Assembly: GCA_021234155.1 (NCBI GenBank)
Contig: JAJEKV010000028.1
Span: 9,376,134 to 9,440,133, forward strand
DNA length: 64,000 nt
Direction of reading: 5' to 3'
Source: Isoetes taiwanensis
Lineage: Eukaryota > Streptophyta > Lycopodiopsida > Isoetales > Isoetaceae
Within the stretch, counting starts at the first letter, position 1, and every line of letters begins with the position of its first letter. This document shows, in pieces, positions 2,582 through 58,560 of the stretch. The notes under the pieces are model-generated. The model was not told the origin of the DNA, did no database searches, and saw nothing but the letters and a program-made list of their open reading frames with translations. A program made the translations under genes and the position numbers.

Positions 2582-2613
<32 letters not shown>

Positions 2614-19630: not shown

Positions 19631-21570
19631 TCTTATATTATAAAATTATAGCGTGTGTCTTCAATGGAGCCCTAAATCGGACGGTCGAGGATTTGATTGA
19701 CCAATGGTGGAGATGATGTGCGTGTCTTCAACTAAAATTTCATCTCGACTATGGCTTCAATATGAAAGGGAAAAGGAAAAAGGAAAAGGAAAAGGGAAAG
19801 GGAAAGGGAAAGGGAAAGGGAAAGGGAAAGGGAAAAGGAAAAGGAAAAACGATGAAAGGGAAAAGGGAAAAGGGAAAAGAAAAAGGGGAAGGGAAAAGGA
19901 AAAACGATGAAAAGGAAAAGGGAAAAGGGAAAGGGAAAAGGAAAAGGAAAAGGAAAAGGAGGGAAAAGGAAAAACGATGAAAGGGAAAAGGGAAAAGGAA
20001 AAGGAGGGAAAAGGAAAAACGATGAAAGGGAAAAGGGAAAGGAAAAAGGGAAAAGGGAAAAGGAAAAGGGAAGGGAAAAAGGAAAAACTATGAAGGGGAA
20101 AAGGGCAAGGAAAAGGGGAAGGGAAAAGGAAAAACGAATGAAAGGGAAAAGGGAAAAAGGAAAAAAGGAAAAGGGAAGGGAAAAGGAAAAACGATGAAAA
20201 GGGAAAAGGGAAAAGGGAAAAGGGGAAGGAAAAGGAAAAACGATGAAAGGGAAAAGGGAAAAAAAGGGAAAAGGGAAAAGGGAAAAGGAAAAGGGGAAGG
20301 AAAAGGAAAAACTATGAAAGGAAAAGGGAAAAAGGAATAAAAGAAAGGCAAGAGGAAAAAAAAGGAAAGAGAAGGAGAAAAGGAAAAAGGGAAAGATAAA
20401 AAAAGGAAATAGAAAAAAGGAATAGAATAGGCGAGGGGGAAAGGAAAGGGAAAAAGGGCAACATGAGAAGGGTAAGAAGTAAGGGTGAGAAAAGGAGAGA
20501 AAAAGGTAAGGGAAAAATAAGAAAGGGTTGCAAAAAGTCCATGGAAAAAAAAAGGAAAGTAAAACAGAAAAGAGAGAGGGGAAAGGGCAAAAGAGAACTT
20601 GGAAAAGGGAACAAGAAAAAAAGAAAAAAAGGAAAGGGCGAAAAAAAAGAGAAGAGAGAAATGGTGAAGAAAGAGAAAAAGGGAAGCAAAAAGAGCATCG
20701 AGATAAAGAAAGAGGGAAATGATGGAAAAAGGAGGAAAAGGGGTGGGGAAAGTAGAATAGACAAAGGGTAGGGAGCAAGGAATAGAAAAAGAGGAAAAGA
20801 GGAAGGAGAAAAGGGGCACGAGAAAAAAAAGGAAAGAGGGAAAGGTGAGGAAATAGAAAAAAAGAAAGGGAAAAGAGCATGGGAAGGAAAAAAAAAAAAA
20901 AGAAACAACAAGAAAGGAGAAAGTGGAAATGGGAAAAGGGGAAGAGGATGGTGAAAGAAGGAAAAAAGGGTACATAAAAAAGGTTGAGAAAAGGGAATAG
21001 AAAGAGGCATATGAAAAGGGAAAAGGAACGGAAAGGGAAAATGTAAAAGAAAGGGGAAAGAGAAAGGAAAGGGAAAAGGAGGAACAAAAAGCAAAAGGGT
21101 GGGGAAAGTATGAAAAGGGAATGGAAAGTTGAAAGGAAAAGGGAAGCGAAAAAAGGAGAAGGGAAAGCAAAAAGAGCATGAGGAAAAGGGGAGAGAGAAA
21201 TGGGAAAAGAGATGGGGAAAAGGGCACGTGATCAAGAGGAAGAGGGTGGGGAAAGGAAGAAAAGGGCACATGAAAAGGTAAGCAAAAGAGAACAAAAAAA
21301 ATGCATGAGAAACGGGAAAGAGGAAGGGAAAAGGAAAAGGAAGAGGAAGGGGAAAACGAAATGGAAAAAGAGTAGTAGAAAAATGGGAAGAGCGGGGAAA
21401 GATAAAAAGGAAGGGAAAAAACTGATAAGAAAAAGAGAAAGAAAAAATGGGGAAGGGGAAAGGGAAGGCAACGGGAGGGAGAAGGGGGTTAGAAAAAAAA
21501 AGGAGAATAAAAAAAGAAAGAAATTAAAGGTTCCTAATTTATGCCCAGCAAGGCTGGGTACCATTATTAG
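19631..21570 (+). mobile_element. Helitron H2 (non-autonomous, plus strand) inside the NB-ARC gene
   Basis: The element starts TCTTATATTATAAAATTATA and ends with hairpin CCCAGCAAGGCTGGG, then TACCATTA and TTAG. The bases outside are A (19630) and T (21571), as expected of Helitron insertion between A and T without duplication. Joining the flanks restores the NB-ARC reading frame, which fixes both ends to the base. It encodes no Rep/helicase. Most of the body is a polypurine tract. The first ~130 bp closely match, in reverse complement, the right end of the Helitron at 37525-39424. Confidence 0.9.
19765..21520. repeat. Polypurine tract (GGGAAAA-like) within Helitron H2
   Basis: About 1.75 kb of nearly pure A/G. 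It begins as (GGGAAA)n, then 'aaaacgatgaaagggaaaag' recurs with a 50-70 bp period, then becomes irregular. The long Lys/Glu/Gly-rich and antisense Phe/Ser/Pro-rich frames reflect the repeat. Confidence 0.9.
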
Positions 21571-23341
21571 TTCCCAATGACGAGAGGATAGTAAGCATTG
21601 CACATGAAATAGCCAAACCTTGCAATGGACTTCCATTAGCTCTTAAAGTTGTGGGCATTTCAATGTCAGGTAAAAATGATCTGTGCCATTGGGACGTAGC
21701 ATTGAAGAAAGTGACAAAGGGCGATTTAATCGATAATGAGCATAAAATACTTTTCCAGACTCTTTAGTTAAGCTATGATGCACTATCAAGTGCAGATAAC
21801 CATCTACCAGTCCAGGAATGTTTCCTTGACTTATGTCTAGTAAGTCCTCCTTATTTGCTTGGCCAAATATCCACACGATGGAAGGCATTAAATTTGATAA
21901 CATGCAGCGAAGAGGACACATACCGCGTGCTATATATCTTAGAAAGTAGTTCCCTGATACTAAATCTAAATGACAAAAAATCTAAATTGCAAATGCACGA
22001 TGTGATTAAGAGAACGGGAGCATACATCATGCAAAATGAGCAGCCTATTAAGTGTCTTTAACATGTCATCTCATCACTTAAGAGAATTCCATGCTATAAA
22101 AGAAATGGAGATGCAAGGTTTAAGGAAAATATGTTTGGCCAACAATCAGTTGCAAATTATGCCGCCAATTGAGGCACCGGACTTAGAACTACTTGATCTT
22201 CAGGACAATCCTTTAGAATTGGGGCTTCCAGGGAACTTCTTTGAAGGCACTCAGAATCTAAAATTCGTGGATCTTGATAGGATTCAGTTTGAAGTTCCAT
22301 TGCAATACCTACAAGGACTGGCTAGTCTTGAAGTGCTTTACCTATCAAGGGATGTAAATGATTCTTACAGAATTGGTTACTTCTCCTGCAAAAATGACAC
22401 ACTAAAGAACTGCCATCTTGAATTGAAAAACTTAAGACATGTGGCATTGCAGTGCTACTGTCCTTCATTCTTGTGCCATTCTAGTTTTTTGGAGGAACTA
22501 CATTTGGATGTATCATTTGAGTGCCTTCTCCATCTTCCCCACACTCTATGCAACCTGCAGAAGATGAGAATTCTAGGGATCACAGTTCAAAAGTTTAAGA
22601 CAGAAGAAGAAACTGAAGGCATGCAGGGCAACCAGGTTCTATTTGAAGGTATGGAATTCATTGGCCAAGTTTCGTCATCAAAGATATCTATGACCAATTG
22701 GAAAGCATTTCCAAATCTCCAAATGCTTTCATTATCTAATTTTGATTGGAAACACGTGAAGTTTGAATGTTTTTCGACGAAGCTGCAAGAGCTTGAGATG
22801 TATGATTGTCGCTATTGCCATTCTACATTTCCTTATTACAATTCTCGAGCAGGTTATAACTTCCACTACAACAGAAGTTTGCCGGGATTGGCAGTGTTAC
22901 CTGCTACTATTGGGAAGTTACCATGCCTTAAAGTACTGAATGTGGCCAAGTGCACCGCCCTCGAAGTAATAGCATGTGAGGAAGAAGACTTTCCCAAGTT
23001 GGAGAAGCTCTACGTATTCAAGCGAAACTAGCTCTCAAGGACGCTTATAGAACGAGACAACAATAGCAACATTAGCATCTTCGTACAAACATGACAAGAA
23101 TGACGACGTTATGGTGATTAGAATAACAACTATTTTATAAGATAGTGCAAAAAAGATGTGATTGTTGAACTATAATGTTATAGATTCCACAACTATTCAA
23201 AAGCTTAGGGACAAAAGCCAAAAAGTTTATTAATCACAATAAAAAGTATAAAATTTACACTTCTCATCTAACTGTGTAGCACAAAAATATGAAACAAGAG
23301 CACGAGCCTGAAGCACAATGTACTTACTCCAAGATAGGAGA

Positions 23342-23840
23342 CTATCGATAAGAATTAATTTTAAGATATTGAATCGAAATACGTTCCTTCATTTCTGACT
23401 CAAGGGAGGAACACTCGCAAGCCATGAGTATCGTTTTTTTGGCCACCGTAATAACACCATGTGCAGATGAATAAATGCCCTGAAAAATGTGGTGTTTTGC
23501 GGCGGCTCCAAGGTAAAATGTGGTGTCTGCGACACTCAACCGAGAAACAAGATAAAATGTTGTCTGTTTAGGCTGGTGGCCCATGCATTGGCATAGGATG
23601 CCAAGAGGATGCGTCGGCAGTCCAATGCACTGTTAAACAAACCTTGTAGCCAGGACCACGCGTGCTAAACCTTTGGACAATAAAAAAGATAGTGCTTAAG
23701 AGTCTCAACATCTGAAACGCGGCAGAGCGCGCATATTGCAGATATGCGAGGATCATAATGATGTCGAAAGTCATTGGCACGCAGGCACCTGTGGATAACC
23801 TGCCACCAAAGCATAGAAACTTTAGAAGCAATTTATCTCA
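23342..23840 (-). mobile_element. LINE 3' fragment (zf-RVT tail), minus strand
   Basis: A minus-strand frame gives text like CLRANDFRHHYDPRISAICA, LCRVSDVETLKHYLFYCPKV and a following HAWSW, the C-x2-C ... H-x3-C pattern of the LINE zf-RVT module. Frameshifts break it. It lies between the two copies of the LRR segment. Confidence 0.6.
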
Positions 23841-23949
23841 AAGCCAGCGCCATGTACGACACAGAATGGGTTGTGGAACCTATAGGCGCTACCCATATGG
23901 CAATTAGTTTAGACCCTTTAGTTCCTATTATATTGCAGCTTTGTGCATG

Positions 23950-24650
23950 GAGCCCACCGGGCTATGGAGGTTATGAAGTGGTGAGCACCACACAAGGGGT
24001 CAGCGGTGAGATAGAGAAAGTCCTGTTGGCGTGGCTCTTTGGGGACTTAAGCGAGCTAGGCTTATAGCCGGTCACTTCGTGTGGGCGAGTATGAGTCCGA
24101 TACTTCCTGGGTCGATGGTGTCGCCCTGACCCTCAGGAGTTGCAGGTGTTGGCCTGGCTCTTGTTTTGGGGAGTTCAGTCGAATAAGACGTGTGTTGCCA
24201 CGATCCTCTAGACGCCTATCGAGCTATTGTCTTCAGGGAATGGGAAATGCATCCCTTGCTACCTCATCGGACACAGGAGATGTAACCCAAAAGTAGCCTC
24301 GTTGGGTGATACCAAGAGGTTCACGTCTCAATGAGGATTCTGATCATGGCAGGCGGGAGTTAGCCCATCTGCAAAGTATGCATAGGAGGGGCGGAGGGAG
24401 TGGTCAACCCTAGCCATTGTCTATAGCCAGCTCTGCCATTGTTATATCTCGGTCTGCTCTATTTTGAGATCCAGCCGTCAGTCTACTTTCCCTATGAGTC
24501 TGAGCCTGGGTAGGAGCTTATATGTTTTACGATATATTGCTAGCTATGATGAATCTATGGATGGATGGATGTGCTATCCTTCGTGGTAGTAGACTAGGTT
24601 GTGTTGTTTTGCCAGTGCTGACGTTGTAGCACAAGGTCCCCAAAAGATAA
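23950..24650 (+). mobile_element. Diverged LTR fragment related to the gypsy LTRs of this window
   Basis: Order and wording follow the 3' two-thirds of the LTRs at 26544 and 48214: 'ggggcggagggagtgg' (ggcggatggagtgg there), 'caaccct', 'agccgtcagtc', 'gagtctgagcctgggtagga', 'gtgctatccttcgtg'. It is much more diverged than the two LTRs are from each other. No internal region is attached, so it is a solo or truncated LTR of an older relative. Confidence 0.6.
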
Positions 24651-24837
24651 TTGTTATCAGTTTTCTGCAACAATCTTTTCATGAAACAAATAATAATAAA
24701 ATAATATTATTTTGTGTATGACTTATTTAGGAAAAATTAGACTTATTCAAAGTTTTTAGACATGTCTATATTCTCGAATTGAAATTGAATTTAGACATGT
24801 CTATATTTTTAGACATATCTATATTCTCGAATTTGCA

Positions 24838-25690
24838 CCGGACTTCTTTGAAGGCACTCAGAATCTAAAATTAGTGGATCTTGATAGGATTCAGTTTGAA
24901 TTTCCATTGCAGTACCTGCAAGGACTGGCTAGTCTTGAAGTGCTTTACCTATCAAGGGATGTAAATGATTCTTATAGAATTGGTTACTTCTCCTGCAAAA
25001 ATGACACGCTAAAGAATTGCCATCTTGAATTGAAAAATTTAAGACATGTCGCATTGCAGTGCTATTGTCCTTCATTCTTGCGCCATTCTACTTTTTTGGA
25101 GGAACTACATTTGGATGTAATATTTGAGTGCCTTCTCCATCTTCCCCACACTCTATGCAACCTGCAGAAGCTGAGAATTCTAGGGATCACGGTTCAAAAG
25201 TTTAAGACGGAAGAAGAAACTGAAGGCATGCAGAGTGAACAGGTTTTATTTGAAGGTATGGAATTCATGACCTTAAAGAATCTTGAGATCCATGTTGGCC
25301 AAGTTTCGTCATCGAAGATAGCTTATATATCTATGACCAATTGGAAAGCATTTTCAAATCTCCAAATGCTTTCATTATCTAATTTAGATTGGAAACAAGT
25401 GAAGTTTGAAGGTTTTACGAAGCTGCGAGAGCTTGAGATGTATGATTGTCGCTATTGTCATTCTAGCTTTTATTACAATAATCGAGCAGGTTATAACTTC
25501 TACTACAACAGAAGTTTGCCGGTATTGACAGTGTTACCTGCTATTATTAGAAAGTTACCATGCCTTAAACTACTGAATGTGGCCATGTGCACCGCCCTCA
25601 AAGTAATAGCATGTGAGGAAGAAGACTTTCCCAAGTTGAAGAAGGTCTCGTGTATTCGATCGAAACCAGCTCTCAAGGGCGTTTATAGAA
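24838..25690 (+). pseudogene. Duplicated LRR segment of the NB-ARC/LRR gene
   Basis: Near-identical to 22225-23030, starting at FFEGTQNLK and running through YLSRDVNDSYRIGYFSC, LEELHLDV and CEEEDFPKL. It retains a segment (MTLKNLEIHV plus a few residues) missing from the first copy, so the first copy has two small deletions. The frame is open to 25812, but the last part reads into unrelated repeat sequence. It lacks NB-ARC and any start context, so it is a duplicated fragment. The left breakpoint follows three copies of 'agacatgtctatatt'-like text (24757-24835). Confidence 0.8.
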
Positions 25691-25880
25691 TGCCGCGGTT
25701 CTATTTGCGACAAGCGGTAGAACCGACATTTCTTGGATGGGGATGTCCCTTTGTCCTCCTCCTATTTATTGACCTCTCTTCATTGTTGTTCTATCATCCG
25801 GCGTTCTCTTGAACTAGATTTCTCCTTCTTCTCTATCCTATCAGTTTTGGTTGTATTTATCCTACTCTACTCTGTTTACC
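25691..25880. repeat. Dispersed ~180 bp repeat, left copy
   Basis: Starts 'atgccgcggttctatt' with a short inverted repeat (GGTTCTATT ... AGAACC), then 'cttggatggggatg', 'ctatttattga', 'ggcgttctcttga'. A second copy in the same orientation is at 58385-58560, on the other side of the large composite element. It looks like a promoter or 5'-end piece of a repeat family, not identified. Confidence 0.7.
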
Positions 25881-26390: not shown

Positions 26391-26416
26391 AAACAAGGTT
26401 GCAAATTAAACGGGAG
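26391..26416 (+). repeat. Left terminal inverted repeat of the DNA transposon
   Basis: About 23 of 26 positions match the complement of 58065-58090. It is immediately followed by a small perfect hairpin (AAACGGGAGTG / CACTCCCGTTT, 26408-26435), present on this side only. Confidence 0.7.
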
Positions 26417-26543
26417 TGTTGCAGCACTCCCGTTTCAAAGATTCCTTTAGAAAAAGCATGTCACTTCAAAATTTGGGCTTTTTTAAGAGAGGTTTAAAGT
26501 TTCAGGAATATCAATTTTTTTTTGGGCCTATTTGTGGGGTATT

Positions 26544-35300: not shown

Positions 35301-35615
35301 AGTAGACATCATGGGCATCCATCGACATAAAACCGCTCAGGTGCCCGCCATAGCCATCATCGAGAACTGAAGATGAGATGCAAAAATCATACCGAGACCA
35401 TACCGAAACCATACCGAGAGGAGATAGATGCAAAATCGAGGCTGTCAGAATTTTAAGGGAAAACATTCCGCCATAGCCAAGCTTGGCCGCAAACAAAAAA
35501 AAAAAACCTAATTAGGTAACGATGCAGATGATGCCACGTGGCCTAGCGAAATCTCAGCCGCCCAATCTAGGGCGCCATTCAAGACAGACATACACTATAA
35601 TTTTATAATATAGGA
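32376..35615 (-). mobile_element. Helitron H5 (non-autonomous, minus strand)
   Basis: The right end (minus-strand 5') reads TCCTATATTATAAAATTATA. The left end (minus-strand 3') ends ...CCAAGCACCAAGCATTAG, a diverged version of the hairpin-CACCATTACTAG terminus of H1. The outside bases are A (32375) and T (35616). Length 3.24 kb, similar to H1 (2.97 kb), and both share 'gccgccc(g/a)atctagggYgc' near the right end. There is no Rep/helicase. Minus-strand frames at 34640-35500 may be captured gene scraps but match nothing I recognise. No polypurine tract. Confidence 0.7.
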
Positions 35616-35619
35616 TATA

Positions 35620-37524
35620 CTAGGAACGATGCCCAGCGTTGCTGGGCATAAGCTGTGTAAATGATACACTATACCAATGAGAGAATAATCCAAAAGTACA
35701 TCATTGTTACACACGCCACTATTTTCTGTACCCTTTTCCATTTTCTCTATCTCGTTTTTACCCTTTTCCTTTTCCCCTTTCCTTATTTTTCTTACACCTT
35801 TTTTTTTTCCTTCTTTTCCTTTTTCCTTTGTTCCACACATCCCCCCACAACCCCTCCCCGGCCCCGCTTCCCTTCCCTTTTCCCTTTCTCTTTTCTTTAT
35901 GGACTTTTTCTTTCTCCTTTCCTCCTTTTCCTCTTCCCTCATGCCCTTTTTCCCTTTCCTCATGCTTTCCCTTTCCCTGTCCCTTTCCCTTTCCCTTTTC
36001 CTATGCCACATTTTTTCTCGTGTGGCGCAATTCTTTTTTTCCCCACCCTTTCCCTCTTCCCCCTTTTTTTCCCTTTTTCCCTTTTTCATGCTCTTTTTTT
36101 CACTTCTCTTTCCCCTTTCTTCACCCTTTCCCTCTTTCAAGTTCTCCCTTGCCCATTCCTCCTTCCATTCTCCCGCTCCCCTTTCCCAGGTTCCCTTCCC
36201 CCCTCCCTTTTTCTTTCCTTTCCTTTCTCTTCACCTTTTTCTTGATCCCCTTTTTCCCTTTCCTTTCTCCAAACTTTCCCTCTTCCCCTTTTTTCGTTCC
36301 TTTTTCTTTCTTTTCTTTCTTTTTTCCTTATGCTTTCTCTTTTCCCATAACCTTTTTCCCTTCCATTTCCCCTTTCCTCACCCTCTCTTCTCCTTTTTCC
36401 GATGGTGTTTTTTCACTTTCCTTTTTCACTCTCTTCACCCTTTACCTCTTCCCCCTTTTCCCTTGCCCTTTCCCCCTTCCTTTTTCACCTTTTCCTTTTC
36501 CTCTTTCTCCTAGGTTCTCTTTCCCCGTTTTCCCTTCATTTTGTTTTTTCCCTTTTCTTTTCTTTTTTTCCATGCCCTTCTCCCCTCCTTTTCTGTTCCT
36601 CTTTCTCTCTTTCCTTTTCTTCCTTTTCCACCCTTGCCCTCTTCGCCTTTTCTTCGGTGCCCTTTTTCCCTTCCCTTTCCCCCTCTTTTTTTAATTCCCT
36701 TTCCCTTTACCTTTTCCCAAGCCACTTTGCCCTTCTCTTTTCTCCTTTCCTCGCCCTTTCTTTCTTCCCTTTTTCCCATGTCATTTTTCGCTTCTCCTCT
36801 TGCCTTTCTCTTTTTCTTTATTCCCCGTGTCTTTTTTCCATTTTCTCATCCCTTTTCCTTTCCCCCTTTTTCCTTTTCCATTTCCCTTTTTCCCTTTTCC
36901 CGTCCTCTTTCCTCACCTTTTCCCCTTAACCTTTTTTCCATCCTTTTATCGATGTCCTTTTTGCTTCTCTTTTCCTCTTTCTTCACCCCTTTTCTCTTTT
37001 CCTTTTTCCCGTGCCCTTTCCCCCTTCCCTTTTTCCTTTTTTCTTGTGCCTTTTTTCCATGTTCCCTATTCTTCTTTGCCCCACTTTTTCTTTTTCGTCC
37101 CCTCCTTCTTCCCATCCTTTTCCTGTTCCCCTTTTCCCTTACCTTTCCTTTCCCCACAATTTCCTTCTTCCCTTTTTCTCAGTCAGTGCCCTTTTTCCCT
37201 TCCCTTTCCCCCTCCTTTTTCTATTCCTTTTCTTTTTTCCCATGCCATTTTACCTTCCCTTTTCCCCGTTCATTGCCCTTTTCTTCTTCCTCTTTTTTCC
37301 ATGCCCTTTTTATCTTTCCCTTTTCTCCTCCTTTTTTTTTTTCCCTTTTACCTGTGCCTTTCCTCCCCTTTCCTTTCCTTTTCCCCTTAAGAGATCAAAT
37401 CATGACGAATCACAGTGGTGGAAGGTCGTGAAATAAATCTTGGCCTTCAAATTCAATGAGATGATCTTAGCCATTCAAATTAGGGCTTGATCCATTCAAT
37501 ACGATATAACATTATAATATAAGA
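35620..37524 (-). mobile_element. Helitron H3 (non-autonomous, minus strand) with polypyrimidine body
   Basis: The plus strand starts CTAGGAACGATGCCCAGCG and ends ATTATAATATAAGA. On the minus strand this is a TCTTATATTATAAT 5' end and a GCCCAGCAACGCTGGGC hairpin followed by CTAG at the 3' end. The left flank is A (35619). The right neighbour is the next Helitron, starting at the very next base. The body, 35720-37400, is polypyrimidine on the plus strand. No coding capacity. Confidence 0.85.
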
Positions 37525-39424
37525 CTAGGAACGTGCCCAGCATTGCTGGGCATAAGCTGAGAATCTATTGATATATTGTAACAATAAGAGAATAACCCAA
37601 AAGAGCTCCACTATTAAAGCATTCGACGTCATTTCTCGTCCCTTATGCCATTTGCTCTATCTTGCTTTTATCCTTTTTCTTTTACCTACACACTTCCATT
37701 TTTTTTTTAACCTTTTCTCTCGTTTTCTTACATGCTTTCTTTTCTTCTTTTTCCCCTTTTTTTTCTCCACCCCTTTTCCCCCTCCGCTTTCCTTCCCTAT
37801 TCCCTTTCCCGTCTACCTTTTCCTGATGGACTTTTTCCTTTCCATTTTCCTCTTTTCTCGACCCCTTCTTTTTTTTCCCTTTCCTCTTCCTTTCCTTTTC
37901 CATTTCCCTTTTTCCATGCCCTTTTCTCCACATTTTTTCTCTTCCCTTTTTTTCTATGCCAATTTTCCTCTTTTTTCCCACCCTTTTTGTCTTCCCCTTT
38001 TTCTTTTTCTTTTTCCTTTTTTTATGCATTTTCTGCTTCATTTTTTTCCTTTTCTTCACCCTTTTCCTCTTTCCCTTTATCTTGTCCCCTTTTCCCCTTC
38101 CCTCCCTTTTTCTCATGCCCTTATTCTAGGTTCCCTTTCCCCCTTTCTTTTTCTATTTTCTTTCCTTTCACTTTCCCTTTTTTCATGCCTTTTTTCCCTT
38201 TTCTTTTCCCTCTTTTTTTCCCCTTCTCTTTTCCTTTCCCATGCCCTTTTTTGCTTCCGTTTTCGCATGCTCCTTTTTCCTTTTTTTCACCATTTCCCTC
38301 TTCCCCTTTTTCCCATGCCCTTCTCTTTTCCCATTTACCTCTTCCCTTTTTCTTTGTGCACTTTTTCCAAGTTGCCTTTCCCCTCCCTTTTTCTTTTTTC
38401 TTTCGCGTTCCTTTTTTCCATGTCTTTTTTCCTTTTCCTTATCCCCTTCCCCTTTATCTCATGCCCTTTCTCCCTTCCCTTTTTCCATTTCCCTCTTCCC
38501 TTTCTTTTTCTTTTTTTCTTTTCGTTTCCCTTTCCCCTTTTCCCTTCCTTTCTCCTCGTGCTTTTTTTGTTCCCCTTTTCCCTTCCTTTTCCTCATTTTC
38601 CCAACCTTTCGCCCTTCCCTTTTTTCCGGTGCCCTTATTCCATGTCATTTTCTCTTCCCTTTTCTTCTTTCCTCATCCTTTCTCTTTTCTCCTTTTTCCT
38701 TTTCATTTTTTCATACCCTTTTTCCCTCCCTTTTCCCATTTATTCACCCTTTTCCTCTTCCCCTTTTTCTTGCGCCTTTCACCCTTTTTTTCCCCTTCCC
38801 TTTCCCTTTCATTTTCCCTTTTCCCGATGGCCCTTTTTCCATTCCATTTTCCTCCTCTCCCAACACTTTCTCTCTTCCTTTTTTTTTCCCTTTCATTTTT
38901 CCCCCTCCCTCGCCTTTTTCCTTTTATGCCCTTTTTCCCTTCCCCTTTTTCTCCACTTTTTTTCCTTTCCTTTTCCCCTTCCCTTTTCCTTCGGCCCTTT
39001 TGCCTTCACTTTCTCCTTTTCCTTCGGCCCATTTGCCTTCCCTTTTTTCATTTTCTCTTCCCTTTCCCTTTTTCACTTCCCCACTTTTTTTTTTCTTTTT
39101 CCCACTTTCCCCTTTCCTTTTTCTATTTTTGTCTATCTATCTTTTATTTTTTATTTTTCTATTTCCCCTTTTTCCTTTCTCCCTTTCCTTTGTCCTTTTC
39201 CCCTCCCTTTTCCTTTTTTCTTCATTTTTCCTCTCTTTTCCCTTTTTCCTTTCCCCTTTTACGCCTTCACTGTCGGATTGAGTGAATCCTATTGAAGCAA
39301 CAATCAAGATGAAATTTTGGTTGAAGCCACGCACATGTCATCTTCACCGTCGGTCGATCAAATCCTCAACCATTCGATCTAGGTCTTTATGGAAGACACA
39401 CACTATATTTTTATAATATAAAGA
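37525..39424 (-). mobile_element. Helitron H4 (non-autonomous, minus strand), head-to-tail with H3
   Basis: Starts CTAGGAACGTGCCCAGCATT at 37525 and ends ATATTTTTATAATATAAAGA at 39424, followed by T. The last ~130 bp are the reverse complement of the first part of H2 (shared 'gatcaaatcctcaaccattcgatct'-like text). The body at 37690-39270 is polypyrimidine. It evidently inserted between the terminal A of H3 and the original host T. Confidence 0.85.
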
Positions 39425-39535
39425 TGAGTATAATCTCTGTTGCACTTTAAATGTTTTGTTGATGTATTCTTGCCCCACAACTATACCAACAAACGTAAAC
39501 AATGCAAGAGAACAGAGAAAACTAACCATATAGCC

Positions 39536-44757: not shown

Positions 44758-45991
44758 TATGCGCTCCCCAGATCAGATGACTTAATGGATCAACTCCAAG
44801 GTGCAAAGGTCTTCTCCAAAATCGACAAGGTCAGGTTATCATCAGATCCGGATAAAGGAAGAAGACATCCATAAGACCGCCTTCAGAACGCGGTATGGGC
44901 ATTATGAGTTCACGGTAATGCCTTTCGGCTTATCGAATGCCCTCGCAACATTCATGAGGCTCATGAACGACATCTTCAGGGAGTTTTTGGACACCTTTGT
45001 GATTGTTTTCTTTGATGACATTTTGGTGTATAGCAGATCCCTTGAAGAGCACGTACAACACTTGAGAAGAGTGCTGGAAAAGTTGAAGAGGCACCAGTTG
45101 TACGCCAAGTTGTCGAAGTGCCACTTCGCAACAGAGAAGGTGGAATACCTTGGTCATGTGATCTCAGCAGAAGGAATCTCGACGGATCCTGCAAAGATTG
45201 AAGCCGTCATTCAGTGGCCGGCGCCGAAGAATGTGCATGAAGTCAGAAGTTTTCTCGGCCTAGCAGGGTACTACAGGAAGTTCGTGAAGAACTTTGCTAA
45301 GATAGCAGCCCCGTTAACAGACTTGACGAGGGCGGAGAAAGTGAAAGATTGGGCAAAGCATTGGCATAAGAAAGCCCAAGCAGGGTTTGAATTGTTGAAG
45401 GAAGCTTTAACAACCGCCCCAGTCTTAACCCTGCCGGACCCGGAGAAAGACAAGCTCGTAGCAACGGACGCGAGTAAGATAGCTACAGGGGCAGTGCTCA
45501 TGCAAGAAGAGCGTGTGGTAGCGTATGATTCCAGGAAGATGAACGACGCCGAAACGCGCTACCCCACCCACGACCAAGAATTGCTTGCGGTTGTCAGGGC
45601 ATTAAGAATTTGGAGGCACTATCTTTTGGGAAGGAAGTTCCAGTTGGATACAGACCATCGGAGCCTCCAATATGTATTCACGCAACCACACCTCAACCTG
45701 AGGCAGAGAAGGTGGATGGAGTTCCTTGAAGAGTACGACTTTGATATAGTCTACAAGCCAGGGAAGCTCAATGTGGTAGCGGATGCGCTTTCAAGGCATC
45801 CCCTGACAACTAGAGTGCATTGCAATGCAATTTCGACGATCTCCAGCGACTTTGGTAGGAAGATTGAAGAATCCTTGCCAACGGATGTGGATTTCAAGGA
45901 AGTACGGGCAAGCCTCTCTAGGGAGGCTAGAACAGATAAGGAGCGGGAAGCCTTTAAACATTTTAAGAAGGAAGGCCCTGTTATACCATAA
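44758..45991 (+). CDS. Gypsy reverse transcriptase (C-terminal part) and RNase H
   Basis: Starts at the Helitron junction with the YALPRSDDL motif. It has a one-base shift near 44829 and then a long frame: [29 protein letters not shown], and the catalytic FFDDILVYS at about 45008-45035. The connection [11 protein letters not shown] leads to RNase H with its acidic residues in [25 protein letters not shown] and [11 protein letters not shown]. The frame ends at 45991, but integrase continues in another frame from about 45960, so a second shift is present. Confidence 0.92.
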
Positions 45992-47354
45992 GAACAAGTT
46001 GTGCGTACCCGAATCATCAGGTGTAAGGAAATTGATCCTCCACGACACACACAACAGCCCAATAGCTGGCCATGCGGGATTCATGAAAACATATTTCAAA
46101 GTACGCAGCAGCTACTATTGGCCAGGAATGAAGAAGCAGATAGCTTGCTACATCAAGGAATGCCAGCTATGTCAGCAGACAAAGGAGGAGCAGCTTCGAA
46201 TTCCAGGGGCCTTAGAGCCATTAGCGGTGCCAAACGCTAAGTGGGAGGTAATCAGCATGGATTTCATCACAGGACTCCCAAGAACAGCAAGAGGGAAGGA
46301 TGCTTTGATGGTAGTGGTCGACAAGTTGTCTAAGATGGCACATTTTGTGCCTTGCAGGACCACAGATACAGCTATGGATACAGCAAAGCTCTTCACCAAA
46401 GAGATCTTCAGGCTTCATGGCATGCCAAGGGAGATTATATCCGACAGGGATCCGAAGTTCATGAGCGCCTTTTGGCAAGACCTCTTTGCGACAATCCAAA
46501 CGAAGCTATCCATGAGCACGGCGTATCATCCGCAGACGGACGGACAAATGGAGCGGACCAACAGGATTTTAGAGGACATGCTAGGAAACTATGTCTGGAA
46601 TAAGCAAGGTATGTGGGAAGAATTTATTCACTTGGTGGAGTTTGCATACAATAGCACCAAGCAGGAATCATCCCAAATGTCGCCGTTTATGATCAATTAC
46701 GGCTATCAGTGCCTAACTCCAGACACTTGGCACAACCCCGTGTCAAAAGTGGAAGTTTCGCAGCAGATGTTGGCCGATATGCAGCAGCTTGTGGAAGAAG
46801 TTCGAGGATATCTGCTAGCAGCAAGAAGTCGTCAGAAGAGCATCGCCGACAAGCATCGAACAGTCAGGGAGTTCAAGGTTGGAGATGATGTATGGCTCAA
46901 GATCAAGGTGAAGCAGGGAAAGCTCAGGATCGGGAATTGCAAGAAGCTTGCTCCAAGGTGGGCTGGACCTTTCAGAATAGTCAAGAGAGTAGGCAATCAA
47001 TCCTACAAGCTAGACTTGCCAGCGCACCTAAAGATTCATAAAGTCTTCCACGTAAGTTTGTTGAAGAAGCATACTCCCAATCCAGACGAAGTCTTGGACA
47101 CTCCAACGTTGTTGGAAATGACGGAGGAGCAGCTGGAAATAGTTCCAGAATTGATTCTTGATAAAGCTTTCAAGAAAACGAGGAGATCAGAATTCCTCCA
47201 GTATTTGGTCAAGTGGAAACACTTGCCAGGGGAAGACGCGACATGGATACTCAAGAAAGATTTAGTAAAGCAGTACCCACAGTTTATGGAGCAATGGGAC
47301 GGCAAGGTCATCTCCGAAGAAATCGGCTCAGGCATGTCGATTTGTGTAGGTTAA
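45960..47354 (+). CDS. Gypsy integrase with C-terminal chromodomain
   Basis: The zinc-binding HHCC end ([13 protein letters not shown] ... CQLCQQT, 46040-46185) is followed by the DDE core: [19 protein letters not shown], and [14 protein letters not shown] for the Glu. The GPY/F-like segment [12 protein letters not shown] ... [11 protein letters not shown] is at 46870-46990. At about 47145-47290 is a chromodomain-like fold: [27 protein letters not shown]. Chromoviral integrases use it to steer insertion to marked chromatin. The domain is complete to the stop at 47354. Confidence 0.92.
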
Positions 47355-49914: not shown

Positions 49915-51635
49915 GTATTCTTTGGACACGACTTTGGTTTTTTGGAGTTAAGCACATGAAAATAGCAGAATTGAGACATGAGTACATAATTTTATAGAGG
50001 TGGATGTACAAACACAAATTTAGTAAACGTAATAATAATAATTTCATTACTGTTTTTGTGTTATATCAATAATGGCAATCAATAATGAATGTCAATCAGT
50101 AGCCACAACATAAATCCGTCAGAGATCTAAATTAAAATCTTCTTCATTCTTCTTGCTGGTCTTAGCTTGATCAGACTCTATCTTTTCACCTTTCTCTGGT
50201 GACTTAGGCTTTTCTGTGTTGGTGGTTGCTTCCGGTATTGTAGCTAGAGCAACTTCTTTCAGCTCTGCAAATGTAGCTTCGTCTTCCAAAGAGCTTGTAA
50301 AAGGAGGCTGTATCTCCGAAGATGTCATCTTAGCAAAATCAGAATTAGACTTTGCCCCCAACTCTTGATTCTCGTCTGGTAGAGTTGGTAAGGCAGAAAG
50401 TCTCATCTTGATGAACTGTACAGCCTCCTTATCAATGTCAACAACCACACAATTTCAGCCCTTCTTAAGTGCGCAAGTAATCCTTGTATCAGAGCCAGAA
50501 AATGCGTCGAGCACCCAATCTCCTGGACGTGAGAACATGTCCAGAAGATGGTTAATCAGCTTCTGCGGCTTCTGGTAGTGATTCACTATTCTTCCTTGTG
50601 CACTAGGGTCTTGCAGCTTCTGTAACACAGCTGGAAACTCCAACACGTTTGAAAAGTTCTGGCACGCTGCTGTGTTGAAGTGTTCCATTGTACGTTTCCC
50701 ATCGAAACTTCAATAAGCCACATGGAGATATTCGACCTTACTCAGCAGTCGCGGGCCTCCACCATGGTAATTAATGTTTGTTTTGTACCTAAGAAACAAA
50801 AAAATAAAAAAGGATTTAAGTATAGCCAAAAGAAACGTATTCCGGAATAGAAACTCCTAACAAGAATTTAAAAATTCTACAATTGTCACTACAAAAAAAA
50901 AGAAGGTAATGAAAACAAAAGGACTTGTGTATTCTAGAATAAGTGCTTACCAAACCAGATTTTCATAACCAGCCTGCGCAGGCGAACCAAAATGATTCTT
51001 GAAGCTGGCTTCCACAAGGCCGGATTGCATGCTTGAGTGAAATACAACCAGCCTCCAATGTTTAGCCGTGGTAATTTGCTTTATACCGTCGATGAAAGCG
51101 TTAAACTCAGAGTTTTTAAATAGCTGGTTGTCGTAGCGGCTGTCTTTCAGCTTAAACCCATATGGAAGGTCAGCTATTACCAAGGTAAAATCTTGGTGCA
51201 ATCACCGTGTACTATACAGAACAGGTTATTTTGATCGTACATTGTAAAGCGTTCGTAGTCGGAGGGCATGCCTGTCCGCAAGAGTCCTCTCTTCTCGCGC
51301 TGTCCTGACCAGATGCATGAAGCCGTCCGGCAGGTCCTTGTTTTTCTTTTTGCTCTGCAAAGAAGAACGTCTTAGTAACAAGAAAAACAACAATATAAAA
51401 AACAATTCAACATACCCAGCCTTCAAAATTTGGCGCATGTTGGATAATCCTTTCGTCCGAGGTTGCGATAGGGTAAAGCTCTTTGCACCTTTCTCAGTTG
51501 TCGACATTTAACTGTTCCATTAAGCATGTTTGACATGTGATGACATTTTTCTGGCTGTAATATAATACAAACGTTTTAAGTAAGAAAACTAAAAAGGAAA
51601 GCAACAAGAAAGAATCAGTTAAACACTGTAAGCTA

Positions 51636-51863
51636 AAGTGTATTCCAGAATACACTTCGGCCCTTACACTGTAAGGCAAAGTGTATTCCGGAATACACCT
51701 TGTCTCTTGCGTGAGGGCCAAAGTGTAATCTGGAATACACCTTGTCTCTTGCGTGAGGGCCAAAGTGTATTCCGGAACACACTTTGCCTTACAGTGTGAG
51801 GGCCGAAGTGTATTCTGGAATACACTTTAGCGTGTGAGCCAAAGTGTATTTCGGAATACAATT
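51636..51863. repeat. Palindrome array 1 (six sites, ~42 bp spacing) in intron 3 of the methyltransferase gene
   Basis: Sites begin at 51636, 51679, 51721, 51763, 51806 and 51842 (spacings 43, 42, 42, 43, 36). The core is GTGTATTCYGGAATACAC with AA and TT outside. Mutations are few (for example GTGTAATCTGGAATACAC at site 3). Spacers of ~20 bp are also related to each other ('tgtctcttgcgtgagggcc' twice). It fills most of the intron 51555-51898. Confidence 0.92.
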
Positions 51864-53838
51864 CTTCCTATCAAACGAAAAACCCAAAGTGGCATTACTT
51901 GTGAAGCTCCTTAGACATTTCTTCTAGTGTAAATTCCTTATCCACAACCTTTTGCAGTAGCCTTTCTAGTATGTCCATATATGTGAAGCCCTGCATTTCT
52001 CGCCAAACAGTTATTGTCATTTCCTTTTTGGGGACGTCGGATCCTTTTTTCTTTTCGGAGACCTTTCCTTTGCTTTTCAAATCACCACGCTCGAACATGG
52101 TGAAGATTTCGTTTTGGAGGTCCCAAATCTGCAGAGAAAAAAGCGATGTCAGTGGGAGGGTTGCAGGGGTATTCCAGAATACAAAAGAAACTTACTCTGT
52201 CGTCTCTGAAGGCTAGTTGGAACCAGTTGTCATGTGGTATTAGAGACTGCCGTTTGTTAGCCTCGTCATATTTGAGGCAGCACTCCACAGCACATGCTTC
52301 CTTCAGTTCCAGAGAGTATTGTGGTTTCTTTAAATCATCTCCATATTTTTCTTTAAATATAACATATTCCCTGCGCATGAACCTGATTTTGTCCACGAAA
52401 CTCATTTTAAGCTTATATTCGTTGTCAACATTGTGTGTGTTGGCAACGATTTTGGCTTCTTCGTCTGTCAGACTACAGTAAACAGCGCAGAGCACAGAGA
52501 GATATCTTGGATTGTTTTTCTCTTTGTACAACTGCCTCCTTGCTTTGAAACTGTGGTTTCCCCCAAGGACATAGTGCATGTAGGTGTTTGCATTTTCTTT
52601 GTCGTAGTCCTTGGGGTCCATGCACTGGGATCTGTCAACAAGAACAACAATTGGAGCAACATGGGCGTTGGGGTTGCTCCTTATTTTGTCCTTCAGATTT
52701 CTTAGATGGTCAGCATAGATTTTGCGAACCTGAAGGGGGCGCTCACCATCTTCATTCTTCGGTGGCAACCTCATGGAAGTTACTGGCAAGTATATTACAC
52801 CTTGCACATACTTTTTCTGATTTATTTCTTCCATCCTCTCCGAGGTCTTGTCCACCTTTTTTTCTTTAATGGCCACCCCAGGTGCCTTGCCCTTTCCCTT
52901 CTTCTTTTTTGATTGTTCCTCGGGGATTTCTGCAATTTCAAGCTGCTGAACCTTCCGCTTCTTTAATTCCTTAGCGGCTATGGTGTCTCTTGGCCTGCTA
53001 AGTTTCTTTGGCGGCACTGGAGGGACTTCCTGTTCTTGTTCTTGGGAACCTCCATCTGAAGACCTCCCTGAAGTACTAGGAGAAGGTGATGATCCTGATC
53101 TATCTGCATCTGAATGCTCGGACTCACTGACAGGAAAGTCCTCGCTCGTACTAGCACAAAGCTGTCTAATTAGTGAAGACAGGCTTCGTTTGGTCCTGTA
53201 GTGTGAAAAAAATTTGTACAGTGCCTGTGGTTGCACACTGACAATCCGAAAGCTTGCGATGTCTACAACAATGAAGCCTTGGGAGGTCTTGAAGGATAGC
53301 CTCCCCACCTGTCCTCCTTGTCCAGCAACCTCGGAGACTTCTTTTATTGTACCCAGGTTAAGGAACTCGGAGTCCGCATATCGTTTGTTGCCAGCACTCT
53401 TGCAAACGTGTAAAAACGTCAGCGTGTTGTACTTTCCACCCGCACCCCTGGTTACGAACCACTGTGTTTGGAAATTTTCATATATAGCAGGCTCGTCCGT
53501 GTCAGCGGTGTGCTTCTGAGGGTGTGGTCGCCTGAGCTTAAGTGTTTTTTTTTTTTTGCCCTCTTGCTTCCTTCTTCCCTGCCATTGAAACGTTTAAAAC
53601 AACAATGTTAAGACAGTAAACGGGATAAAAACTGTATTCCAGAATAACTTTTGCTAATATTCAGATCTAAAGTCCAGCAAAAAACAGAAAAACAAGCAAA
53701 AATAATATATCTTCAACACGATTTTTCATGGTTTGATTGGACTAAAAAGTTGTATGTTCAACCTAAAAGGTGGTTTGTTTGAGCAAAAAAGTGACATGTT
53801 TATGCCAAAAAAACAAATGTTTTCACACAAGAAGGCTA

Positions 53839-54153
53839 AAGTGTATTCTGGAATACACTTTGCTCACACAGGAAGGCTAAAGTGTATTCCGGAATACACT
53901 TTGCACTTCAGGAGAAGTGCAAAGTGTATTCTGGAATACACTTTGCTTTTGATTGAAGGTCAAAGTGTATTCCGGAATACACTTTGCTCTTCGCCCGAAG
54001 GGGAAAGTGTATTCCAGACTTTCCCCTTCAAGCGAAGAGCAAAGTGTATTCCGGAATACACTATACACTTTGCCCTTCTTCAGTGGGGAAAGTGTATTCC
54101 AGAATACACTTTGGGCTTGGCCAAAAGCCCAAAGTGTATTCCGGAATACACTT
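53839..54153. repeat. Palindrome array 2 (eight sites, ~42 bp spacing) in intron 1 of the methyltransferase gene
   Basis: Sites begin at 53839, 53880, 53922, 53963, 54005 (right half deleted), 54042, 54090 and 54132. Spacings are 41, 42, 41, 42, 37, 48, 42. Same core as array 1, central dinucleotide CCGG or CTGG/CCAG. Spacers are themselves inverted repeats, for example TTTGCACTTC-agga-GAAGTGCAAA and CTTTGGGCTT...AAGCCCAAAG. The array lies in the intron 53579-54214. Confidence 0.92.
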
Positions 54154-54368
54154 TGGCCTACAAAAGTAAATCAACAAACACACGAAAGATGTACTATGTA
54201 CTTTACATGCTTACCTGTCCATTATTTTCGCTATGTAAATCGGAATACAGCAAAGCGATGAAGGTTGGAAGGCGCTCGGACTGGCGACTAAAACTCTGAA
54301 TGCGGAATACGTAACTGAGGCACTCAAATTTCCTTTTTAAAGGTAGACCAATGTCAATTGTGTTTTTC

Positions 54369-54500
54369 TATGTGATGTGGAATACGTCTTGTCCATACAC
54401 TCTGGACAAGTGTATTCTGGAATAGCATCCATGCAAACAGGCAGCAAATGCTGAACACAAAATAGTATTTCGGAATAGCATTATTCTCGAATACTTGTGA
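54369..54500. promoter_or_regulatory. Shared divergent promoter region with single palindromes
   Basis: Between the two genes of the DNA transposon are further copies or half copies of the array motif: GTGTATTCTGGAATAGC (54410-54426), AGTATTTCGGAATAGC (54464-54479), TTATTCTCGAATACTTG (54481-54497), and half sites at 54374-54385 and 54303-54311. Other single copies are in introns at 50836, 50926, 52167 and 53631. Their position suggests regulation of both genes by whatever binds the arrays. Confidence 0.55.
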
Positions 54501-54538
54501 GTTAGTAACAAGACGACAATTTTTTGCCGTTGTTTAAC

Positions 54539-57500
54539 ATGGTTAACCGCTTCGTGAACAAACTTCCACCATCATTTGTTTGCTCAAGTACCTCCACTTC
54601 AGATGGAACACAAGACGGAGATGCTTCTTCAACTCCTACCTCGACAAGATCTTTGTTGCTTCTCGAAGATACTCCGAGTCCAGTAACTAGTAGACTGCCA
54701 CCACCTTTCCAACCCTCTCCAAGCCCAGTAGGAAACCGGCTACCACCTCCTTTCATTGCCTCACCTGTTGCACGTAGCAATCTTCCACCACCATTTGTAC
54801 CATCCCCTGACACTACACAGGCTCGACCTCAGTAAATTTTTCGAAACAGACTACCTCAGCCATTTGTAGTTTCTCCTTCTTCACTTACACAAACAAGGAA
54901 TACAGCACGTTCCGAAGACTGCGAGATTGTCCATCGCTTGTCCCACCACGATTTCACTACAAATGAAGACGACCTTGCAACATCTACTCCTCTTCACACA
55001 ACTGTGGTGACACATGGGTTTGCAGAATTTCAGTCGGCTATAAGAGACATGTTTGACCGAACTCCTTGTGAAGAAGCTGCAACAACTTTCGCTGGCACAT
55101 CATATGGTGGCCCATCGCCTTCTTTCAACACTGTACCTCCGCCTTATCCGGGTACAGCTTCACGTGGTTTGTTCTCCACTATAAGCACACCACTAAGGGT
55201 AGAGGAGGTCACCCCCAGAGTAGAACTCTCTTCAGAAGATGAAGACACCAACGAGGTGCAGCGAGATTACACATTCTCTAGCCAGTCCACCAAGAAATTC
55301 AAGGTGGATTATGGTTTGAGAGCATGCTCCTCTGTAAAAAGAAGAAACCTTATGGACGAGCATAAAATGAGAAGACTTTTAAGAAGTAAATGCCGCTCAT
55401 TGGGTTGCATCAACAAATTTAACATGTCTAAGTTACGAGCAATTAGAGACAACTACAGTTCAATGACATTGGCTGACCAGAATGCCTACTTGGCCTATCA
55501 TGTAAGACCAGACCGCAACACCTTCTTGCACTACATTAACTGTGAAGAAGTTTGCCAAAAATGCTTTATGGTTGTCCACCATTTAGGGTCCACCAGAATG
55601 TCTAGAATACACAAAAGATTGGACAAAAATCTAGCAATTGATGATCATTGTGGACCAAGAAGGGTTGTAACTATGCATGCCCTTGCTGCTGTATCATGGA
55701 TGGAGAAATATTTTAGAGAAACATGTGAGAAGCTACCTAACAGCAACATGTATCATTTGACTGATAACATCACCAAAAAGGATGTTTTTAATGAGTACAA
55801 AGAGACTTGCACTCAGCTTCAGCACATCTCTTACTCACACTTCACTAGACTGTGGAAAAGTGAATTCGGGCTTGTGAAAATTCCCAGGAGACATAGAATG
55901 TTTGTTTGCTCAAGGTGTACAGAATTAAAGAGTCAACGAGAAACTGCAAAGACAGAGGTCAAAAGAAGTAAGATGTTCTCCAATCTCTCACTTGTTTTAA
56001 GGAAAATTCTTTGACCTGATTTCTTCTACAGATATTGTGCAACAGAACCTTGCCAGACATCGTGAACAACAAGCAGCAGAGAGAAGAAAGCTTGCCAAGC
56101 ACAGAAAAAAAGCTCTTGAACGTCCACTGCAATATATGTCTGTTGTGATTGATGGAATGGATCAAAAAAAAACTACTCTACCGCATTTCTTGAACATTCC
56201 TAAAGATGTGCAAGAGGAATGTTTTGTTAAGGTCCACCTTGTAGGAGCTATGCTCTTCAAAGGAAGTCTAAAGTGCAAAGTATTTTTGACATATCCAAAC
56301 TTGCATGGTGACCCGAACCTCACAATTACAATTCTTAACAAGGTCCTGTGCGAGCAAGAGCAATTACCACCAGTGCTTTACCTGCAACTTGACAATACTA
56401 CAAGGGAGAACAAGAACCAAACACTCTTTGCGTACTGTGCCATGTTAGTGGAGCTAGGAATCTTTAGAAAAGTGAAGCTCAGTTTCTTACTTGTAGGACA
56501 CACTCATGATCAGATTGACCAAATGTTCAGCAGATTTTCTGTGCGCCTTAGAAGGAAGAAGGCTTTTTCTCTTCCTACTTTAGTTCGAATTATTGAAGAT
56601 TCTTACACTCCCATTCCAGTGATTGAGCTTCTTAAAGAGACTGCTGACTTCAGAGAGTTTATTTTCTCTCAACGTTCAGACAGAGAACAAGCTGTGAACA
56701 AGTTGAATGATCTCACCTTCCAACATCACATCAAGTTCTACTTGAAGGATGACCAAAGCTTCTTACAGGGGAAGAAGTATACCACAACTAAGGACTGGAG
56801 TCCACCAGAGGGATTACGCTTCCTTAAATATATTCCAGACATTTCCTTCATAGAACGTGCTGAGCAACTTCCTCTCAAAAATCCTAAGGAGTCCACGCAG
56901 AAGAAAAGTACCCCTCTATCATCCTTAAAAGCCATTGAAAATGGAATTTCCTCAGGCTTTAAGTACTTCTTAGAAGAAGATCGGATGTGGAGGAGTAATT
57001 TCTTTCTCGAACAGAAACTTGTTGTACAAAATATAGCTCTAAGACAGTTGCAAGAACCATTTCAATGGCCTAACACCTTCCATCAACCCCAGCACCAAGC
57101 AAGTCCAAGCAATGCTACATTAGCATATGCAGTAGAAGAAGACGAGGATCGAGTCATGTACCTCGGGCCAAGACGCAGGAATGAGCCTCAAGGTAATATC
57201 ACAGAGATTACCAAAGGTATGCTAATTGCTCTTCCAACTGAGGAGGATGACAAAGGTCGACCTTTCTGGATAGCAAAAGTGCTTGACACAGTCAAGGAAG
57301 AAGGCTTAGTCACTAAACTCAAGATTCATTGGCTTGCAACACGCTCAGAAAATGCTTTTGAAGGTAGATATGAGTTAGAAATGAGAAGCCAAAGAAAAGG
57401 GAGAAAGTCCAAGAAGGTGGGTTGTAGGGATGAGCTGAACCTTAATGACGTGACTATATTGTGCTATGATTTTAAATTGAAATCTGACAATCGTCTACGT

Positions 57501-57722
57501 CAGAGGACTATCACTTTGCTTAAAAAAGCTTGTAATTACGAGGAAGAGGATGAAGAAGGTGGTGACAATGCTTCACCATCTGTTGATAGTGATGAGGAAG
57601 ATAACTCAAGCACTTCCTCGAGTGACAGTGAAAAAAGTGAAGGTGATGAGGATGGCATAAATGAATATGATGACGTCCTGGATCCCTCTCTCATCACTCC
57701 TCACACTTTTGTACATAACTGA
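54539..57722 (+). pseudogene. DUF7869-like candidate transposase with chromatin-reader-like C-terminus; one premature stop
   Basis: ATG at 54539. One intron, 55968-56031 (gtaag...ctacag), whose removal keeps the frame. About 1,040 codons to the TGA at 57720-57722. N-terminus: repeats of (N/S)RLPPPF with PSP spacers, extending past an in-frame TAA at 54833-54835. Middle: VCQKCFMVVHHLG and CSRCTELK, zinc-finger-like. Core: VVIDGMDQKKT (Asp at 56151), LQLDNTTRENKN (56391-56410) and LLVGHTHDQIDQMFSRF (56485-56535), the pattern I associate with DUF7869 proteins and, by inference, an RNase-H-like DDE/D transposase. C-terminus: GMLIALP...FWIAKVLDT...KIHWL, Tudor/BAH-like, then an acidic Ser-rich tail. 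Divergent from the methyltransferase gene, inside the same TIRs. The single stop suggests recent decay. Confidence 0.75.
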
Positions 57723-58064
57723 GTCTTAGAAAAAGACTGTAAATTTTGCATGTGAATGTGAAGATTCTATCTTCAAATTTTGAGAATACTACAGTTTCAG
57801 TTACAGACTTACTTCAATTTTTTGTTAAATATTTTATCCTCTGAAATGTGAGTTTCTCTCTTACAACATACTTCAAGAACATTTTATTTTTTTTAGAAAA
57901 GTGACACTTTAAAAAAGTCAATTCTTTCGTTGCACAAAAAAATTAGTCATTGGGGGGGTCAAAAAAATTGATGCATCCTTTTTTTTTAACCTCGTTTTAC
58001 CCCCTTTTGTAAAAAAAAGGGAATCTTTGAGGAATATTCCTTTTGATCTCGTTTTGATGATTTG
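57723..58064. other. Right subterminal region of the DNA transposon
   Basis: A/T-rich with homopolymer runs. Contains the complement of the subterminal CAAAGATTCC (58020-58029) and a palindrome AGGAATATTCCT (58030-58041), reminiscent of the half-site GGAATA of the arrays. Confidence 0.6.
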
Positions 58065-58090
58065 CTCCCGTTTAATACGCAATCTTGTTT
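58065..58090 (-). repeat. Right terminal inverted repeat of the DNA transposon
   Basis: The reverse complement begins AAACAAGATTGCGTATTAAA and continues CGGGAG, pairing with 26391-26416 with about three mismatches. Confidence 0.7.
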
Positions 58091-58384
58091 TCATCTCCGT
58101 GTGTTTGATCTTGTCTGCATAGGCTTTGCCCTTGTAGTGCCGAATGCCAGCTTATTTTCTTTTCTAGTTCCCATCTGTGTCGGTTTCACTTCCTATTTTG
58201 ATTCTACCCTTTGAGTGCCGCACCCAGTCAATTTTCTCTTTTGTTAATTCCATCTGTGCACATCCTATTGTTGGCTCGTTTCCTTGCCTTATTCTGCCTG
58301 CCCTACTATTTTCCGGCTGTATTTAGCATTTGCCCTAAATGCTCATATTCGATCAACGATCCTTTTCTTGTCAAGTCAATCTAA

Positions 58385-58560
58385 TGCCACGGTTCTATTG
58401 CGATAGCAATAGAACCGACATTCCTTGGATGGGGATGCCCCTTTTCGCACTCCCTATTTATTCAGCGTCTTTTCATTGTTTCATCATCGGCGTTCTCTTG
58501 AGCTAGTTTTTTCCTTCTGCTCTGTCTTACCAGCTTCTCCTTCACTTCTCTACTGGATTG
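58385..58560. repeat. Dispersed ~180 bp repeat, right copy
   Basis: Same orientation as 25691-25880. Here the inverted repeat is complete: GGTTCTATTGC-gata-GCAATAGAACC. It is followed by 'gacattccttggatgggga', 'ctatttattc' and 'ggcgttctcttgagct'. The similarity fades after about 180 bp. Confidence 0.7.

Follow-up and report, generated by a model that had tools for sequence, protein, structure and literature searches.

Phages are known in which a ParB fold is fused to an N6_N4 methyltransferase (PMC12704722), and DNA-modifying enzymes aboard eukaryotic mobile elements are likewise already known; for plant DNA transposons, no report of a gene of the PF01555 or ParB-methyltransferase kind was found in a literature search made mostly among papers open without subscription. 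Here we describe a 64,000-nucleotide stretch of contig JAJEKV010000028.1 (the window), which contains a decayed cut-and-paste DNA transposon carrying a DNA amino-methyltransferase in a probable plant genome. This is supported by the domain matches, the introns, a neighbouring gene with a transposase fold, the inverted repeats, and a fern homologue; upstream of the methyltransferase, the same gene probably encodes a ParB-like domain. The comparisons made here and below refer to portions of the cited papers. Like the phage fusions, the window gene joins a probable ParB-like part to a PF01555 methyltransferase and is tied to mobile DNA; unlike them, it has five introns, an extra N-terminal domain, a linker shared with the fern Adiantum, and a neighbour of eukaryotic transposase type (PMC12704722). 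The word starts "transposon" and "plant" are absent from the main text of PMC12704722.

Retrotransposons with Dam-like and with cytosine methyltransferases are known (PMC3783388, PMC5890265). The Dam-like N6A methyltransferase of DIRS elements resembles the present case, a likely adenine writer, in being a bacterial-type adenine methyltransferase encoded by a eukaryotic mobile element, but it belongs to the PF05869 family and lies within the retrotransposon pol (PMC3783388, PMC5890265). Mariner elements in viral genomes, described with methyltransferase and nuclease genes, are also DNA transposons with a methyltransferase gene, but of the Methyltransf_26 and C5 cytosine families (PMC3627910). 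The fungal DNA transposons that carry TET/JBP enzymes share with our element a DNA-modifying enzyme aboard, for which escape from silencing has been proposed; unlike it, they act by methylcytosine oxidation and belong to Dileera, hAT, Kyakuja, Zisupton, Plavaka, and other fungal lineages (PMC12730594). The bdelloid N4CMT is, like the window gene, a permuted PF01555 methyltransferase with five introns in a eukaryote, and its authors stated that it had no eukaryotic homologues; it is, however, a host gene with a chromodomain that writes N4-methylcytosine (4mC) on transposons (PMC8885841), whereas the window gene is carried by a transposon and is of adenine type by appearance.

The transposon and its two genes

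The methyltransferase gene lies on the minus strand, from about 54.2 to 50.1 kb, and is interrupted by five introns, all with GT-AG borders; splice sites and reading frames bear out the exons proposed in an earlier, sequence-only reading of the window. A possible exon 1 (54215-54330), without a clean in-frame start codon, is followed by a GT donor at 54214. Exon 2 (52196-53578) is a single open frame of 461 codons, and contains an N-terminal domain of unknown kind, an acidic/basic linker, and the probable ParB-like domain (within 52196-52831). Exons 3 (51899-52128) and 4 (51416-51554) encode a further linker, in which WR.MQG and EMSKE of exon 3 are kept in Adiantum, and exon 4 contains the motif CQTC. 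The methyltransferase itself is divided between exon 5 (50951-51354; the N-terminal half) and exon 6 (50119-50788; the C-terminal, S-adenosylmethionine (AdoMet)-binding half, plus a charged tail). Premature stops, as the sequence-only reading had also noticed, occur once in exon 4 (51496-51494) and twice in exon 6 (50712-50710 and 50457-50455), all in frame, and the frame of exon 5 is broken as well; the copy in the window is decayed.

By its profile matches, the enzyme is a member of PF01555 (N6_N4_Mtase), a beta-class DNA amino-methyltransferase: against a curated cut-off of 26.7 bits, PF01555 scores 39.9 bits on exon 6 alone (50455-50709, E=5.8e-10) and 56.6 bits on the spliced read-through (E=4.7e-15), and PHROG 67 ("DNA methyltransferase") matches at 2.3e-18, reaching into the linker. 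All methyltransferase motifs named in the sequence-only reading were found, namely motif IV (ADLPYGF), the QKP region, DAFSGS, and VVVDID. Their order is permuted, with motif IV in exon 5 preceding AdoMet motif I (DAFSGS) in exon 6, and is colinear with that of CcrM, the best solved structure (E=3.9e-7, residues 8-235 of 239); RsrI and MboIIA come next. CcrM and RsrI are adenine enzymes, and MboIIA is labelled adenine-specific in the structure listing. Motif IV reads D-L-P-Y in the window protein and D-A-P-Y in the Adiantum protein. The sequence-only reading had allowed either N6A or N4C writing; because of the D-x-P-Y motif and these three nearest structures, adenine-N6 writing is predicted to be more likely than cytosine-N4. 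Neither PF05063 (the MT-A70/AMT1 family of eukaryotic N6-methyladenine (6mA) enzymes) nor PF05869 (the DIRS Dam-like family) was among the Pfam matches up to E=10, a range in which the HMMER filters drop most matches above about 0.1.

The terminal inverted repeats that had been thought to flank this gene do exist, but not beside 50119-54367: a 26-nt repeat at 26391-26416 (plus strand) is identical at 23 of 26 positions to the reverse complement of 58065-58090 (88%, blastn E=0.011; the ungapped score of 20 is above those of all 60 dinucleotide shuffles, the highest of which is 14). The left repeat is far from the gene because a long terminal repeat (LTR) retrotransposon of 23.4 kb (26544-49914, plus strand) was later inserted into the element, of which it is not a part; its 1.7-kb LTRs are 89.7% identical, and it is bordered by a 5-bp target site duplication, GTATT, at 26539-26543 and 49915-49919. 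Its pol-like open reading frames are at 44786-47354, and the label Ty3-type was given by eye only. The DNA transposon thus consists of a left end (26391-26543, which includes the first GTATT) and the remainder between the second GTATT and the right inverted repeat (49920-58090), 8324 bp in total without the insertion. Its ends, inverted repeats included, lie 352 and 368 bp past the two stop codons. A candidate 4-bp target duplication, TTCA, is found only if the element starts one base further in.

Divergent from the methyltransferase gene is a gene of the DUF7869 family (54539-57722, plus strand), with one 64-bp intron (55968-56031) and a premature in-frame stop at codon 99. Its match to the profile (PF25273) scores 176 bits against a curated cut-off of 26, and its protein has a predicted RNase H-like catalytic fold with the acidic residues of a DDE/D transposase; on this structural model, it is probably the transposase of the element. 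BAH-domain or DNMT1 structures made up 15 of the 50 Foldseek rows listed for the predicted structure of 56031-57722. These matches probably come from the C-terminal part of the model, and a transposase with a chromatin reader is possible. The name DUF7869 was in no paper found by the literature search.

Bacterial contamination was considered and ruled out, since the gene has spliceosomal introns, the element hosts a nested LTR retrotransposon, and the DUF7869 neighbour is eukaryotic.

The probable ParB-like domain and homologues of the gene

The sequence-only reading had placed a ParB-like fold in exon 2, marked by the stretches APIVVLVD and GGNHSFKA. The second of these fared better than the first: the profile and plasmid matches given below all start at or slightly before GGNHSFKA, and from there on the region aligns with the ParB protein P0122 at 9.8 standard deviations above 2000 shuffles (P0122 having been picked from the plasmid tblastn matches). 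In PHROG, the region matched phrog_30771 at 0.036 and phrog_723, a "ParB-like partition protein", at 0.24. With tblastn, it gave three plasmid matches (E from 3 to 8), of which two, at 3 and 8, are annotated as ParB, and one phage match (E=9). As a control for chance, the region was searched against PDB: Na/K-ATPase beta chains came up at E=0.036, and ParB did not. The only Pfam match in the region was DUF6551 (E=0.036), and a single-sequence AlphaFold model, made without homologues, had a pLDDT (predicted local distance difference test) of 38 and was set aside.

The ParB part is weakly supported. The APIVVLVD half aligns with P0122 at shuffle level; PF02195 had no match in exon 2 or in the spliced protein in the Pfam search; and no ParB family reached its curated cut-off on exon 2, the best match of all, and the sole one in NCBIfam, being TIGR03764 (an ICE ParB family), with E=0.0012 and 18.5 bits against a cut-off of 143.75 (E=0.0073 when the whole of exon 2 is the query). 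In addition, the one homologue of the spliced protein (residues 260-850) that was matched at E<=0.001 among 6077 candidates, P0001 (Adiantum nelumboides L7F22_061151, E=3.1e-22), has nothing in common with exon 2 except the last nine residues of the latter, so the fusion is seen in this window only. We nevertheless call the domain probable, since fusions of this type, to an N6_N4 methyltransferase, are known from phages (PMC12704722). Of the fusion proposed for a plant DNA transposon, the transposon-borne amino-methyltransferase is supported, and the ParB half is probable.

The alignment with P0001 starts with QLAFRD, where exon 2 ends, crosses the linker, and extends past motif IV, with 29% identity over 310 columns, and is continuous across the exon 2/3, 3/4, and 5/6 joins; an additional short piece aligns near the AdoMet site. 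The pair of cysteines that had been picked out in exon 4 (CQTC) is present in the window, but the Adiantum protein has MQHI in its place. Intact relatives had been expected, and the sole homologue found does not answer to this: the methyltransferase in the P0001 annotation is shortened, and the protein may be a decayed one, a misannotation, or a form that really lacks ParB. The nearest named relatives, Adiantum and Riccia, point to a plant host, probably a seed-free one; the nearest of all is P0002 (88%).

Exon 2 (residues 255-470) had no match at E<=0.01 among 510 candidates drawn from 5.8 billion proteins. Scans of IMG/VR with exon 2, DUF7869, the linker-methyltransferase pair, and P0001, and a scan of GTDB with the linker-methyltransferase pair, gave no confirmed relative; these scans depend on short exact peptide patterns, so distant kin would escape them. 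Phage methyltransferases matched in 207 records at E<=0.01, but the two inspected are stand-alone enzymes of about 254 amino acids, so the phage ParB fusions are cited here from PMC12704722 only.

Palindrome arrays and their possible readers

The non-coding parts of the methyltransferase gene contain arrays of a short palindrome. With up to two mismatches, TATTCCGGAATA occurs 20 times in the 64 kb against 3.06 expected, a count reached in none of 100 shuffles, and the longer 18-nt form, GTGTATTCCGGAATACAC, occurs 14 times with up to three mismatches against 0.01 expected. All 20 TATTCCGGAATA sites are within 50838-54493: eight in intron 1 (53579-54214, the larger array; seven of the eight within 53844-54148), one in intron 2 (52129-52195), six in intron 3 (51555-51898, the second array), two in intron 5 (50789-50950), and three between the two divergent genes (54413-54493). 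None is in an exon, although exons and transposase gene make up 6156 of the 8324 bp; the chance of this placement is 2e-12 if sites are independent, and the true chance is higher because the array copies are related by duplication. With three mismatches allowed there are 43 sites, of which 24 are in the element, two of these in possible exon 1. Eight of the 11 spacings within the two arrays measure 41-43 bp. Introns 1 and 3 carry about 20 half-sites per kb; the corresponding values are 0.5 for the LTR retrotransposon, 0.3 for the right flank, and 0 for the left. The central dinucleotides of the 20 copies are CG (9), TG (5), CA (4), and other (2), as expected from CpG decay; this points to methylation of cytosines in the arrays by the host. 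The 24-nt palindrome had no exact match in IMG/VR.

A similar layout has been described for VANDAL21, an element of the MuDR type (PMC12730594), in which the protein VANC21 binds a short motif present in tandem repeats in introns of both VANC21 and VANB21 as well as upstream of VANA21, and removes silencing marks from its own copies (PMC5735166, PMC10398659). The likeness, compared by array layout only, is a short motif arrayed in an element's own introns and upstream regions; unlike the window palindrome, the VANDAL motif is non-palindromic (YAGTATTAY), and unlike the window protein, VANC is described not as a methyltransferase but as a protein that binds and counters silencing (PMC5735166, PMC10398659).

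Taken as a whole, the best explanation we can offer, held tentatively and a little short of probable, is a decayed transposon with a self-marking ParB-methyltransferase that acted at the palindromes. The element has two divergent genes, one for the probable DUF7869 transposase and one for an accessory protein with a probable ParB-like and a beta-class methyltransferase part, most likely an adenine-N6 writer. The ParB-like part, the methyltransferase part, or both would recognize TATTCCGGAATA (or its longer form) in the introns and the intergenic gap; the protein would load on the palindromes and methylate adenines on both strands, so that copies of the element bear a mark foreign to the host, and this mark would keep promoter and ends open against silencing by cytosine methylation, or permit the transposase to act on its own DNA. 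The palindrome is symmetric with adenines in both half-sites, which suits a dimeric ParB or a two-strand methyltransferase, either of which would need such symmetry. The sequence-only reading had suggested that the enzyme might hide, mark, or time the excision of DNA; among these, marking of own copies fits best because of the arrays. A parS-like form of this mechanism, with the ParB-like domain loading on the arrays of the 18-nt palindrome and positioning the fused adenine methyltransferase, whose 6mA (or 4mC) tag would shield the element from silencing or license transposition, seems rather unlikely to be right in all its parts.

The binder of the palindromes could be either protein of the element, the transposase being the main rival of the ParB-like methyltransferase protein. 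If the palindromes were bound by the transposase or by some host factor, the methyltransferase would act elsewhere, for example near the ends, where hemimethylation would couple transposition to replication, as with Dam and Tn10 in bacteria. Half-sites (GGAATA/TATTCC) do occur in both terminal stretches, at 26505, 58031, and 58035, and three palindromes lie directly upstream of the transposase gene; but three half-sites are few for the 720 bp that flank the two coding regions (153, 199, and 368 bp), and the arrays are densest within introns of the methyltransferase gene and not towards the ends. We regard this explanation as unlikely. Passenger genes are common in transposons, and a methyltransferase gene of bacterial or phage origin could also have been captured and carried along without being needed, in keeping with the single, decayed copy seen and with the fact that no DUF7869 gene is shown beside the Adiantum homologue. 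Against such idle carriage, which we judge quite unlikely, are the placement of the arrays, which occupy introns of this very gene and the space between it and the transposase gene, and the conserved linker and methyltransferase blocks of the fern homologue, which suggest long maintenance as a gene.

The arrays might instead act as RNA, the hairpins of introns 1 and 3 aiding splicing or yielding small RNAs, without a DNA-binding partner. Folding is strong in both cases (-213 kcal/mol, z=-22.5 for 53800-54180 in intron 1; -164 kcal/mol, z=-16.5 for the array of intron 3), but any palindrome array would fold so, and the palindromes of intron 2, intron 5, and the intergenic gap form no long hairpin; an RNA role appears very unlikely to us.

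Surroundings and significance

Repeats of several kinds surround the element. A direct repeat of 160 bp (81%) lies just outside both ends, at 25689-25847 and 58383-58536, and contains an imperfect palindrome around GGTTCTATTGC. To the left, 22226-25690 contains direct repeats, about 850 bp long and 88.7% identical, and is perhaps a small non-autonomous LTR element, and at 4337-6178 a unit of about 612 bp is repeated in tandem about three times, with 92-93% identity between the copies. There are also strand-asymmetric tracts of about 1.8-2 kb, with GC and AT skews of up to 0.6-0.7: two tandem, pyrimidine-rich copies at 35551-39434, in the interior of the unusually long LTR retrotransposon; an inverted copy, 66-67% identical, at 19619-21403; and a stretch rich in C and T with which the window opens (1-4000). 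Scans of the window for tRNA genes and Rfam families gave no matches.

The presence of 6mA in plants has been questioned by reports, and the AMT1 pathway has been lost in plants (PMC12695648). With written 6mA thus disputed in land plants, a bacterial-type adenine methyltransferase encoded by a transposon would give a local, copy-specific source of the mark and a clean test system. It would add amino-methylation, with a built-in candidate target, to the means by which transposons counter silencing, next to VANC, TET/JBP enzymes, and captured cytosine methyltransferases, and a transposase role would be suggested for DUF7869. If the parS-like mechanism is true, a mobile element of eukaryotes would possess a DNA modification system that tells self from non-self.

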